Below are positions 1,322 to 4,744 of a stretch of DNA of 6,456 nt, in pieces. The notes under the pieces are model-generated. The model ran no database searches, had not been told where the DNA came from, and saw nothing but the letters and a program-made list of their open reading frames with translations. The stretch is from Sporomusa sp. (lineage in GTDB: Bacteria > Bacillota_C > Negativicutes > Sporomusales > Sporomusaceae): the NCBI GenBank assembly GCA_029256645.1, contig JAQSXM010000204.1, positions 1 to 6,456 on the forward strand, read 5' to 3'. Numbering within the stretch: position 1 is the first letter of the stretch; each line of letters opens with the position of its first letter. The position numbers and the translations under genes are program-made.

Positions 1322-1349
1322 AAACAACAGTTTTTTTATTATACACCCA

Positions 1350-1361
1350 GAACAAATGTTT
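1350..1361 (+). promoter_or_regulatory. Candidate LexA (SOS) box 1
   Basis: GAACAAATGTTT, in the wider context AGAACAAATGTTTG (1349-1362), matches the Bacillus-type SOS box CGAACRNRYGTTYC at 12 of 14 positions, including the GAAC...GTT half-sites and the R-N-R-Y centre (AAAT). It overlaps the -35 element at 1360-1365 by two bases, so bound LexA would block RNA polymerase. The motif match is seen in the sequence and the consensus is established for Gram-positive LexA. That the host's LexA reads this site is an inference. Confidence 0.6.
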
Positions 1362-1388
1362 GCAAAACATTTGTTCTGGGTGTATAAT
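1360..1388 (+). promoter_or_regulatory. Sigma-A promoter of the radical SAM operon
   Basis: TTGCAA (1360-1365), a 17-base spacer and a perfect TATAAT (1383-1388) form a strong housekeeping promoter. Transcription would begin near 1395, leaving a leader of about 65 bases to the GTG at 1460. TTGCAA is self-complementary and sits at the palindrome centre, so the minus strand carries a mirror promoter (TTGCAA, 16 bases, TATAAT at 1343-1338) firing into the 3' end of the LysR gene. SOS-like boxes overlap the whole region. Confidence 0.65.
1365..1376 (-). promoter_or_regulatory. Candidate LexA (SOS) box 2, inverted copy
   Basis: This is the exact inverted copy of box 1 (minus strand GAACAAATGTTT). 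Its centre is 15 bp from that of box 1. It fills most of the spacer between the -35 (1360-1365) and -10 (1383-1388) elements. At 15 bp (about 1.4 helical turns) two dimers would sit on different faces of the helix, so binding may be single or alternative rather than cooperative. Confidence 0.55.
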
Positions 1389-1459
1389 TATTTTAGAACG
1401 CCCTGATGGTTAACGCTTGGCCTTTCAAGACATTAAGATTAAGCAAGAGAGTGATTCAT

Positions 1460-2785
1460 GTGGATGTTTTCGATAAGTTAAAAATTCTAACCGATGCGGC
1501 AAAATATGATGTAGCTTGCACATCTAGTGGTGTGAATAAAAAGGCATCGGCCGGAGGAATTGGTAGTGCGTCCGCTTGTGGAATCTGTCACAGCTTTTCG
1601 GCAGATGGGCGGTGCATTTCTCTGTTAAAAGTATTGCTGACCAATGTTTGCGCTTATGATTGTAAATACTGCGTTAATCGCTTGTCTAACGACACGCCGC
1701 GGGCTTCCTTTACGCCACGGGAATTAGCTGAGCTGACCATCAATTTTTATCGCCGAAATTATATTGAAGGCCTTTTTTTGAGCTCTGGTGTGCTGAAAAA
1801 TCCAGACTATACTTGCGAACAAATGATTGAGGTCCTGCGAATTCTGCGACAAGAGTATCGGTTTTCGGGATACATCCATGCCAAGGCCATCCCCGGAGCC
1901 GACAGTACACTGCTTGCCAACCTTGGTATGCTGGCTGACCGAATGAGTGTGAATATTGAGCTGCCATCTCAAAATAGTTTGCAGCTGCTGGCACCGGATA
2001 AGTCCAAACATTCCATTTTTACACCCATGGGCTATATTCAAAATCGCATACAAGAAAATTCGCGAGATTTAGCAAAGTATCGGCATGCAGCCAAGTTTGT
2101 TCCTGCCGGACAGAGTACTCAGATGATCATAGGCGCTACGCCAGACACAGATTATCAAATTTTAAATTTAACCGAAGGCCTTTATCGGAAATATAAACTG
2201 AAGCGCGTCTTTTTTTCTGCCTATATGCCAGTAGCTGAAAATAGTCTTCTACCTACATTAGATACAAAACCACCGCTATGGCGTGAGCACCGGCTTTACC
2301 AGGCGGACTGGCTATTACGGTTTTACGGCTTTGCCGCTAACGAGCTTCTTGATCAGCAACATCAAAGTTTTAATCCCTATTTAGATCCTAAATGCAACTG
2401 GGCACTCAATCATATGGATTTTTTTCCTGTGGATGTAAACCGTGCTCCCTATCGTGACTTGCTGCGAATACCAGGCATCGGCATAACCAGCGCCAAGCGC
2501 ATTGTAACTGCCCGACGTACAACGTCGCTCTATTCTGATGACCTGAAAAATCTGGGGGTTGTCCTCAAGCGAGCGCAGTATTTTATAACCTGCGGTGGAA
2601 AAACAGTGGACGGCATAAAGATCACACAAAATATGATGCTCCGCTCTTTACTATCCGAGAAAACGCTGGAACTATATCATGCAAATTTCTCCTCGCAGAC
2701 AGAACAGCTTTCACTTTTTGCCCAGCCGCCGCTGCTCACCTTTCCACAGGAGGATATACGAAAATGCATAACCAGTCAGATCTGA
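1460..2785 (+). CDS. Putative DNA modification/repair radical SAM protein
   Basis: This 441-residue protein matches the radical SAM family that is always paired with a DUF4130/UDG-linked partner (TIGR03916 type); its reaction is unknown. The radical SAM cluster motif CAYDCKYC is at residues 64-71, binding [4Fe-4S] and SAM. Further cysteines precede it (C20, C40, C43, C52). The N-terminus DVFDKLKILTDAAKYD is, as I recall, the typical family start. Near the C-terminus a helix-hairpin-helix, LLRIPGIGITSAKRIVTARR (334-353), suggests DNA binding. QLSLF at 416-420 is a consensus beta-clamp-binding motif. I chose GTG at 1460, preceded by the partial SD GAGAGTGA, over the in-frame ATG at 1406. That ATG has no SD, lies about 11 bases after the predicted transcription start, and would add 18 residues unlike the family. 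GTG at 1451 is another option. The gene overlaps its partner by 22 bases, and transcription is probably SOS controlled. Confidence 0.88.
   Translation: MDVFDKLKILTDAAKYDVACTSSGVNKKASAGGIGSASACGICHSFSADGRCISLLKVLLTNVCAYDCKYCVNRLSNDTPRASFTPRELAELTINFYRRNYIEGLFLSSGVLKNPDYTCEQMIEVLRILRQEYRFSGYIHAKAIPGADSTLLANLGMLADRMSVNIELPSQNSLQLLAPDKSKHSIFTPMGYIQNRIQENSRDLAKYRHAAKFVPAGQSTQMIIGATPDTDYQILNLTEGLYRKYKLKRVFFSAYMPVAENSLLPTLDTKPPLWREHRLYQADWLLRFYGFAANELLDQQHQSFNPYLDPKCNWALNHMDFFPVDVNRAPYRDLLRIPGIGITSAKRIVTARRTTSLYSDDLKNLGVVLKRAQYFITCGGKTVDGIKITQNMMLRSLLSEKTLELYHANFSSQTEQLSLFAQPPLLTFPQEDIRKCITSQI
2705..2719 (+). other. Sliding-clamp-binding motif QLSLF within the radical SAM protein
   Basis: These codons encode Gln-Leu-Ser-Leu-Phe, an exact match to the bacterial beta-clamp-binding pentapeptide QL(S/D)LF found in polymerases, MutS, MutL and other repair proteins. 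It lies in a polar, probably unstructured tail (SSQTEQLSLFAQPP), after the folded domains and about 21 residues from the C-terminus. That is a typical place for such motifs. The motif is seen directly; binding is inferred. Confidence 0.6.
2748..2753 (+). promoter_or_regulatory. Shine-Dalgarno site of the DUF4130 gene inside the radical SAM gene
   Basis: A perfect AGGAGG lies 10 bases before the ATG at 2764 and 30 bases before the end of the radical SAM stop codon. It supports the overlapping start and independent, probably stoichiometric, translation of the second protein. Confidence 0.7.
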
Positions 2786-3588
2786 TTTACAGCTATGATG
2801 GAAGTTTTGATGGATTATTGTGCTGCGTATTTGAAAGTTATGAAAAAAAAGAAATTCCACTAGATATTCTACTGGCAGATGCATCCCAGCCCCTGCTCTT
2901 TTCCGCAAAAAAAATTCATACTGATTTGTCAAAAGCAAGTCGAGTGTTAGCTTCTATCCCTAAAAAAATGGGTACTTCAGCACTAAATTTAGTACGACAC
3001 GCCTTTTTAACTTGTCTTGTTCAAAAAGAGTTGTACATCCTGCTATTTCTGCGACTAGGGTATAGCTATGGCCCGACTGTAATGAACATGCTAACCGACG
3101 ACGTAGTGAATACACTCTTTAAAGCAGTTAATCACTTAAATAGGGAAAGTCATTTGCTAAAGGGCTTCCTGCGGTTTTCTATTTTTAATAACGTTCTCGT
3201 GGGCGAAATCGAACCCAAAAATTACGTACTGCCGCTACTGGTGCAGCATTTTTGCGAGCGTTATCCAGAAGAGCGCTTTTTAATCCATGATAAAGCACAT
3301 GGCATGGGACTAGTGTATCAGCCATACCAGTCTGCGGTCATTCCTATTGGAGCTCTTGAATTGCCGGAAGTAGATGAGGAAGAGCAAACCTTTCGCGAAC
3401 TATGGCAATTATTTTATGATACTATTGCGATACAGGGACGGCATAACCCACAATGCCGCATGAGCCACATGCCTAAGCGTTACTGGGCATACATGACAGA
3501 GTTTGACCGCACACAAAAAAATATCACGCCAAAGCTGCCTGGCTCTAGCGTGAAGTTATTGAGCATGGGATTGGCTAAGAATAACTAA
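2764..3588 (+). CDS. DUF4130-type partner of the radical SAM protein (probable DNA metabolism protein)
   Basis: This 274-residue protein resembles the family always found next to the DNA-repair-like radical SAM protein (TIGR03915/DUF4130 type). Family hallmarks are the N-terminal IYSYDGSFDGLLCCVFESYE (8-27), RFLIHDKAHGMGLVY (171-185), and a C-terminal block around LWQLFYDTIAIQGRHNPQCR (213-232) followed by MSHMPKRYWAYMTEF (233-247). His, Arg and Tyr are abundant in that block, but I cannot name catalytic residues. Its function is unknown; the family is called DNA metabolism because many relatives are fused to a uracil-DNA-glycosylase-like domain. No such domain is visible here: the protein ends about 27 residues after the DUF4130 block. 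The ATG at 2764 lies inside the upstream gene with AGGAGG at 2748-2753 (10-base spacing), so translation is probably coupled and the two proteins may act as a complex. The pair has no other visible promoter. Confidence 0.85.
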   Translation: MHNQSDLIYSYDGSFDGLLCCVFESYEKKEIPLDILLADASQPLLFSAKKIHTDLSKASRVLASIPKKMGTSALNLVRHAFLTCLVQKELYILLFLRLGYSYGPTVMNMLTDDVVNTLFKAVNHLNRESHLLKGFLRFSIFNNVLVGEIEPKNYVLPLLVQHFCERYPEERFLIHDKAHGMGLVYQPYQSAVIPIGALELPEVDEEEQTFRELWQLFYDTIAIQGRHNPQCRMSHMPKRYWAYMTEFDRTQKNITPKLPGSSVKLLSMGLAKNN

Positions 3589-3676
3589 GAAAGATTTATC
3601 ATTTCCTGGTAGCCAAAAGAGGAAAACTATGGATATTAATCGAAGCTATATGTAACTTTATAGAAGGAGCGACATT
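3589..3676 (+). other. Short intergenic region with an 8-codon mini-ORF and weak hairpin
   Basis: The gap holds no convincing promoter or intrinsic terminator, so the downstream gene may be partly read through from the repair-like operon. A 6-bp inverted repeat (TTTCCT 3602-3607, AGGAAA 3620-3625) has no T-run after it. An 8-codon reading frame (ATG 3629, stop 3653-3655; MDINRSYM) follows an AAGAGGA site; it may be fortuitous. The real SD of the next gene is AAGGAG at 3664-3669. Confidence 0.4.
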
Positions 3677-4729
3677 ATGCAGGCATCCATATTAGTCTAC
3701 CGCTTATTTGATACTGCCGACTCTATCGACCTGGTTAAGGCTGAATCCCTGTTGGCTACCGGCGGTCATGTATCAAGGCTGCGCCTGACTCGTGTTTCAC
3801 CCAAAGCCATCGTTTTTAAAGATCCGCCAGTCACCGTCATGCTGGCTCAGCAGCAAATCCCTGTCGGTGATCGTACTTTTCCGGCTGATGTCCGCGCCAG
3901 GATCTATGACTTCGGCGTAATTAGCATTATTATGCAGGTGAATCTTCCTGATGATTTTGTGTATCAGGATCTAATTAACCTGGCCCCAGCCATCGATCAA
4001 ATGCCTGATATATTTTTTCTCCGCACACTTGAGGCTGTCCTGACTGGCATCAGACCGGCGCTCAAAAGCGAACACGCATCAATCGTTGAAGAAGATCTGG
4101 TCGTCTACTATTTCAAGGAATGGCATCAGGACTGGGACCCAGTACCTGTTCTTCTTGCTGACAAAGAGCCTGTCAGTCCCGAAACACGGCAGGAAACATT
4201 GGCGAACCGTTTATCTTATGCAAATGATTTTACCCTGCTCGGCTGGAATACGGTAATTGTTTATGACCCGTCCGGCAGCCCGGATATTCCCGACCTGCTG
4301 GAGTTTGCCAATGCGCAGTTTCTGGAGCTGCGCTATTATGATCTGATGCTCAACCAGGAGATTGACAAAATGTATGATGCGATTACCGAAGCCGAACGCA
4401 CCGTTGTCTACCGGCGGCTGGGCAGGTATCGCCGGATCAGGCGGCAGCTCTTAGAGCTGATGGCCGATATTACCTCTGTCACCAGCGAAATTGAAAATTC
4501 GCTAAGAATCACAGAAGATGTTTTCTACGCCAGGGTATATACAACCTACCTGCGTATCCTGCGCATCCACGACTGGACGGCCAGTATTGATCAGCGGGTA
4601 GAGGTTATTCAACGCAGCTATAACCTGCTGACTGATGAAGTAGTAACCAACAGAGCCGAAATCATGGAGGTTGCAATCATCCTCCTCATAGCTTTTGAAA
4701 TAATATTATCTCTTGTAAAATTTCATTGA
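3677..4729 (+). CDS. RMD1/DUF155-family protein, C-terminal membrane anchor
   Basis: This 350-residue protein resembles the RMD1 (DUF155, YagE-like) family, shared between bacteria and fungal or mitochondrial proteins and of poorly defined function. The core shows RIYDFGVISIIMQVNLP (75-91), where family members carry a conserved aromatic/Gly 'YDFG' strand, then LSYANDFTLLGWNTVIVYD (179-197). A long charged helical region (about 205-325), rich in Arg and Glu, has coiled-coil character. A single hydrophobic segment, IMEVAIILLIAFEIILSLV (329-347), ends the protein, leaving only KFH beyond it; such a C-terminal anchor preceded by R/E is typical of the family. The protein is therefore expected to be tail-anchored with the bulk in the cytoplasm. 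The ATG follows AAGGAG (3664-3669) with good spacing. It is convergent with the deacetylase gene, with a 15-base gap. The family call comes from the overall pattern and is less certain than for the other genes. Confidence 0.7.
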   Translation: MQASILVYRLFDTADSIDLVKAESLLATGGHVSRLRLTRVSPKAIVFKDPPVTVMLAQQQIPVGDRTFPADVRARIYDFGVISIIMQVNLPDDFVYQDLINLAPAIDQMPDIFFLRTLEAVLTGIRPALKSEHASIVEEDLVVYYFKEWHQDWDPVPVLLADKEPVSPETRQETLANRLSYANDFTLLGWNTVIVYDPSGSPDIPDLLEFANAQFLELRYYDLMLNQEIDKMYDAITEAERTVVYRRLGRYRRIRRQLLELMADITSVTSEIENSLRITEDVFYARVYTTYLRILRIHDWTASIDQRVEVIQRSYNLLTDEVVTNRAEIMEVAIILLIAFEIILSLVKFH

Positions 4730-4730
4730 T

Positions 4731-4744
4731 AGGTTAACAAACCT
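4731..4744. terminator. Weak bidirectional hairpin between convergent genes
   Basis: AGGTT (4731-4735) and AACCT (4740-4744) form a 5-bp stem with a 4-base loop in the 15-base gap between the two convergent genes. TTTAT follows on the plus strand. The stem is short and the T-run brief, so termination here would be inefficient; this is a tentative call. Confidence 0.25.

Follow-up and report, generated by a model that had tools for sequence, protein, structure and literature searches.

The 6,456-nucleotide stretch of a Sporomusa sp. contig analysed here, referred to in its whole length as the window, carries at positions 1338-1388 a perfect palindrome that is very likely a promoter repressed by LexA and driving an SOS operon of two genes, which encode a radical SAM protein of family TIGR03916 and a DUF4130 protein. 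This reading is built on sequence comparison, which reveals the LexA-type boxes within the palindrome and their resemblance to those at lexA and recA in relatives, and which shows that the boxes are conserved, that the distance between them is fixed and that the double arrangement is nearly restricted to SOS genes. From these features we infer that LexA binds at this operon, that both boxes can be occupied at once and that the genes are induced by DNA damage.

The palindrome, recovered by an inverted-repeat search, consists of two arms of 24 nt each (1338-1361 and 1365-1388) that are 100% complementary around a 3-nt centre; among inverted repeats whose arms are separated by no more than 200 nt, the runner-up in the window has arms of 15 nt. 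Folding of 1330-1400 yields -24.6 kcal/mol (z -13.1) as DNA and -36 kcal/mol (z -11.3) as RNA. Two boxes of the GAAC-N4-GTTC-type dyad lie inside it: box 1 (AGAACAAATGTTTG, 1349-1362, plus strand), which is of the type found in the recA and lexA boxes of relatives, and box 2 (AAAACATTTGTTCT, 1364-1377, minus strand), which is inverted with respect to box 1 and spaced 15 bp from it, each matching seven of the eight core bases. The exact 51-bp palindrome and the two inverted sites had both been proposed from the letters of this DNA alone (the sequence-only reading) and are borne out; the 12 of 14 matches given there for the first site agree with what we take to be the Bacillus LexA-box consensus. 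The inner part of the palindrome is palindromic because the two boxes are inverted, an explanation that does not extend to the outer 11 bp by which the arms pair beyond the boxes.

The TTGCAA-N17-TATAAT promoter that the same reading had placed inside the palindrome is recovered by promoter scanning on the plus strand, with a -35-like hexamer at 1360-1365 and a -10-like hexamer at 1383-1388, as a consensus match only (10/12); since the window contains 14 promoter-like sites compared to 12.6 in shuffled sequences, this match, taken by itself, lacks significance. In the related rows of the alignment the same place, or one within 1-2 bp of it, is occupied by TATAAT or a hexamer like it, as judged partly by eye. 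The operator overlies this predicted promoter, with box 1 overlapping the -35 element and box 2 residing almost entirely within the -35/-10 spacer, and the same arrangement is seen at recA of relatives, where the box is located between TTGACA and the -10 element in the manner of box 2. TTGCAA is self-complementary and hence can also serve a mirror image on the minus strand, where promoter scanning and row comparison place a -10-like hexamer at 1338-1343; the resulting promoter-like site (1365-1338, spacer 16, 10/12 match) owes its match to this self-complementarity.

The radical SAM gene extends on the plus strand from a likely GTG start at 1460, assigned by eye, to 2785, and its product scores 671.4 bits against TIGR03916 (rSAM_link_UDG; putative DNA modification/repair; curated cut-off 343.5). 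It is overlapped by 22 nt by the second gene (2764-3588, plus strand), whose product scores 235.4 bits against TIGR03915 (cut-off 112.25) and 164.3 against PF13566 (cut-off 27). These scores above the curated cut-offs agree with the earlier impression of a DNA repair or modification pair, the products being predicted as such by family name only. A DUF4130 relative is present in 79 of the 80 related loci described below, the remaining locus stopping inside the radical SAM gene.

The related loci are a sample of 80 out of 164 confirmed genome loci encoding the radical SAM protein, in which a box was defined as GAAC-N4-GTTC with at least 7/8 core bases and was sought in the 200 nt that precede the matched start (fewer at contig ends). 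Such a box precedes the gene in 71 of the 80 loci, compared to a shuffle mean of 4.3 and to 138 of 2717 control windows from the same loci, and a perfect 8/8 box is found in 43 of the 80 upstream regions versus none of the 2717 control windows. The same box type is present at both the lexA and the recA promoters of relatives, in seven of seven genomes and then in three of three more, making 10/10. The proposal of the sequence-only reading that the pair belongs to the SOS regulon thus gains support from relatives on two counts: their lexA/recA consensus is that of the boxes in the window, and their orthologous promoters keep the sites. A genome-wide scan with the single-box pattern MGAACRNNYGTTYK in three genomes (G011, G003 and G015), of which a part of the matches was inspected, found both this operon and recA in each genome and lexA in two of them (G011 and G015); a Y-family polymerase gene was among the matches in no fewer than two (likewise G011 and G015), and further matches lie inside genes or are unexplained.

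Other genes in these genomes carry boxes of the same type. In G011 two LexA-type boxes 24 bp apart precede a Y-family polymerase gene (L186/L189); in G003 boxes 24 bp apart occur twice before a similar short gene (L179 and L187), the L179 region also containing a Ku gene; and in G015 (L191) and G011 (L173) an 8/8 box is situated between an ABC-protein-like gene, identified by eye, and a short conserved gene, the protein of L191 having no match in Pfam.

Within the order to which Sporomusa belongs, the radical SAM gene scores above the cut-off in 26 of 28 genomes, including G030, where it is split by contig ends; of the remaining two, G012 holds a fragment at a contig edge and G008 a weak match. 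All 26 genes above the cut-off are preceded by at least one box, and 19 of them by two boxes of at least 7/8, every time spaced 15 bp, with both boxes scoring 7/8 in 18 of these 19; the fragment in G012 is likewise preceded by a double box. A search of whole genomes for the exact double-box pattern finds it in 13 of the 28 genomes of the order, once in each and always upstream of the radical SAM gene, whereas its reversed control occurs in none. Across the class it is found in 17 of 380 genomes (reversed control 3/380), and the four sites beyond the 13 operon sites comprise three upstream of lexA and one inside the mutS2 coding sequence. Outside the order, the two-box loci among the 80 have other spacings, mostly 25-38 bp (19 bp in L058, 4 and 68 bp in L069).

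In three loci (L120, L121 and L122) a double box is positioned between a divergent helicase gene and the radical SAM gene of a second version, termed clade B below; the helicase is PcrA/UvrD-type by family scan in L120 and by eye in L121 and L122. This layout suggests that the double box is a shared SOS control region for the helicase and clade-B genes.

The proposed mode of action follows from this geometry. In the undamaged cell two LexA dimers would sit on the inverted boxes at a centre-to-centre distance of 15 bp; most of the -35/-10 spacer is taken up by box 2, and box 1 covers part of the -35 element together with the DNA upstream of it, so that RNA polymerase would be excluded. Self-cleavage of LexA triggered by damage-activated RecA is the established mechanism of SOS induction, and upon DNA damage this RecA-stimulated cleavage would free the promoter and allow the gene pair to be made.

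The outer arms behave differently from the boxes. Within the family, ten loci have the double box, namely the window (whose membership is itself deduced), L133, L136, L137, L141, L142, L119, L156, L157 and L158, and in these the arms pair beyond the boxes for 11, 7, 0, 5, 14, 7, 11, 11, 0 and 1 bp, respectively. Runs of at least 5 bp (range 5-14 bp) are thus found in seven of the ten, whereas 17 of the 24 aligned rows have runs of at most 2 bp, namely three of the ten in the family and all 14 outside it. When arms were permuted among the loci irrespective of kinship, the pairing observed in the family was reached in 2 of 20000 permutations; the 14 rows outside the family show no excess of arm pairing (5646 of 20000). 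Over 12 outer positions in the ten family loci, 82 of 120 combinations pair, compared to 21-43 when one arm is slid by 1-4 bases; at least two Watson-Crick types occur at every one of the five pairs closest to the boxes. Pairing is therefore kept while the arm sequences differ between loci, which indicates that the arms change together. Relatives with unpaired arms nevertheless retain the boxes and the promoter, and the arms consequently look dispensable. The sequence-only reading had held that the symmetry far exceeds what one LexA site needs: this stands in so far as it is exact over 51 bp, but the part outside the two boxes is not conserved and so is probably not needed. Template switching probably produced the perfect outer arms as a by-product: two inverted boxes would constitute a quasi-palindrome, and one arm would repeatedly be copied onto the other. 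In E. coli, quasi-palindromes become more perfect through such switching (PMC7202029).

Several observations weigh against assigning 1338-1388 to LexA and to a double operator. Seven of the 26 orthologues of the order are without a full second box: in L148, L152 and L154 the second box matches 6/8 at the 15-bp spacing, and L134, L135, L138 and L139 have one box only, which is 8/8 in all four. Even when the upstream region is extended to 300 nt, seven of the 80 related loci (L023, L038, L039, L040, L062, L074 and L078) lack a box that reaches 7/8. The lexA and recA boxes used for comparison are those of relatives. Forward matches to MGAACRNNYGTTYK number 10, 13 and 6 in G011, G003 and G015, respectively, versus 20, 21 and 12 for the reversed control, and because the forward matches are the fewer, one box alone is weak evidence. 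Finally, the arm permutation takes no account of the kinship between loci.

It is highly improbable that the boxes belong to another regulator, such as a phage-type or LexA-like repressor, in place of the host LexA: weaker LexA-like matches, below the cut-off, do occur in the same genomes, but the lexA and recA promoters of all ten relatives carry the same box type. An action of the palindrome as RNA, either as an intrinsic terminator of the upstream LysR transcript or as a hairpin in the leader of the operon, would account for the very stable RNA fold (z -11.3), for the terminator-like scan matches at the palindrome and for the position of the LysR gene, which ends just upstream at 1321. The tail following the stem (ATTATTTTAG) is, however, not a clean T run; the LysR match in L001 and L002 ends more than 1.4 kb upstream of the boxes; the three clade-B loci L120-L122 have the divergent helicase gene in place of LysR; and the outer arms pair for at most 2 bp in 17 of the 24 aligned rows. 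The start point expected from the -10 hexamer would in addition fall downstream of the hairpin. The RNA hairpin entertained by the sequence-only reading is accordingly weak, and we regard a role as terminator or leader hairpin as improbable.

A LexA-controlled promoter of the gene pair could at the same time fire in both directions, so that the -35/-10 combination of the minus strand would produce an RNA that runs antisense into the LysR gene upon DNA damage and, in clade-B relatives, the double operator may serve the divergent PcrA/UvrD-type helicase. The 10/12 match around the self-complementary central TTGCAA and the divergent helicase gene of L120-L122 speak for such an arrangement, as does the exact mirroring of the own -10 hexamer in four of the 24 aligned rows (the window, L141, L156 and L119), all of which are in the family (4/10). 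The -10 is unmirrored in the other six family loci and in the 14 rows outside the family, and the sole nearby open reading frame (ORF) of at least 60 aa on the minus strand is a mechanical one of 60 aa (1188-1370) that starts inside the palindrome; a bidirectional SOS promoter is conceivable but doubtful. Somewhat less probable still is that the exact outer symmetry is itself selected, for example through cruciform extrusion or a palindrome-binding factor, and is not a mutational product. Seven of the ten family loci do pair for at least 5 bp despite the differences in arm sequence between loci, but runs of at most 2 bp in the other three and in all 14 rows outside, and the variation of run length from 5 to 14 bp among the seven paired loci, argue against selection. 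Homogenisation of the arms by template switching fits the covarying arms better than a required hairpin and would be their simplest source.

The LexA-type double operator is shared between two versions of the gene that it precedes. The radical SAM protein comes in two versions in the order, clade A (that of the window) and clade B, which are approximately 44-48% identical, depending on the program, and are separated with full support in a protein tree. The clade-B protein likewise scores above the TIGR03916 cut-off, and its partner in L116 reaches 77.6 bits against TIGR03915, below the cut-off of 112.25, and exceeds the Pfam cut-off for DUF4130. The exchange of versions is apparent in L163 of G011, where the LysR and deacetylase proteins of the flanks share 83% and 82% identity with their counterparts in the window and the flanking DNA aligns at 79-80%: positions 1390-4742 of the window yield no DNA-level alignment to G011 (E 1e-5), whereas 1338-1389 align at 90%. 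Conversely, the gene pair of the window aligns with the DNA of G009 at 84%, yet the LysR proteins are only 59% identical. A tree built from both flanking proteins of seven loci groups the window with G014, which is of clade A and has a single box, at 99/99 support; it does not resolve the order of A and B and so does not give the direction of exchange. Versions A and B thus occupy one and the same place under an operator that is recognisably shared. A bolder and rather unlikely proposition unites these features in a self-symmetrising double LexA switch, in which operators spaced 15 bp and centred on a self-complementary -35 element would repress both directions, their symmetry would be renewed by template switching as a damage-linked form of mutation, and the switch would stay in place while the gene pair swaps between versions that are about 45% identical.

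The SOS assignment of the radical SAM/DUF4130 pair is an extension of an earlier prediction in Clostridium acetobutylicum, where CAC3343-CAC3344 were described as a predicted LexA operon with expression data (PMC3828012). That account concerns one species, its section on the pair mentions neither a double operator nor a palindrome, and the two genes are likened to those of the window as orthologues by description and not by sequence. Comparative genomics has assigned 'a radical SAM protein' to LexA control, both in the core SOS regulon of Gram-positive bacteria and in Balneolaeota (PMC7739468); the family is not named in the relevant part of that work, and the protein may or may not be TIGR03916. 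DUF4130 has been tied to an SOS-related gene network by gene-context prediction (PMC3765255), in a passage that, unlike the present case, describes no operator. The boxes of the window have half-sites, spacing and promoter overlap in common with the Bacillota LexA operator GAAC-N4-GTTC, as given for B. subtilis (PMC4234289), and differ from it in that two 7/8 boxes are set 15 bp apart in exact mirror image.

In colicin genes such as cea8 the promoter is overlain by a pair of overlapping targets that bind two LexA dimers (PMC4482635), an arrangement resembling the two sites of the window. cea8 is a colicin gene of an E. coli plasmid, the E. coli LexA motif is a different one (CTGT-N8-ACAG; PMC4234289), and the description of the colicin sites includes no palindromic arms (PMC4482635), unlike the window. 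In quasi-palindrome correction imperfect inverted repeats are perfected by one strand templating the other arm, as proposed here, in an account that deals with reporters and mutational hot spots and does not mention an SOS operator (PMC7202029). New, as far as the literature searched is concerned, are the breadth of the control, the fixed 15-bp double operator, the covarying arms and the occurrence of the same operator above two gene versions of about 45% identity.

Around the operon, the window contains a LysR-type regulator gene (434-1321) upstream of the palindrome. A gene for a YedE-type putative selenium transporter diverges from the LysR gene and is cut by the window edge, which leaves its first 92 codons; the closest named NCBIfam model is below its cut-off in both cases. 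Between these two divergent genes lies another perfect inverted repeat (287-329, 15-bp arms with 13 nt between them, A+T-rich), for which an operator of LysR is one guess. Downstream, 3677-4729 encode a 350-aa protein with no match in NCBIfam or Pfam; G009 and G015 have relatives of it close to the operon.

Through its conserved LexA-type control, a widespread, biochemically uncharacterised radical SAM/DUF4130 pair is linked to the way in which Clostridia and Negativicutes respond to DNA damage. The SOS link provides a direct route to the substrate of the pair, by inducing SOS and looking at the lesions. The single 8/8 boxes and paired 7/8 boxes of the related operons furnish a natural series for the trade-off between operator number and operator strength in SOS timing, and the covarying arms may preserve, within a promoter, a natural trace of mutation by template switching.
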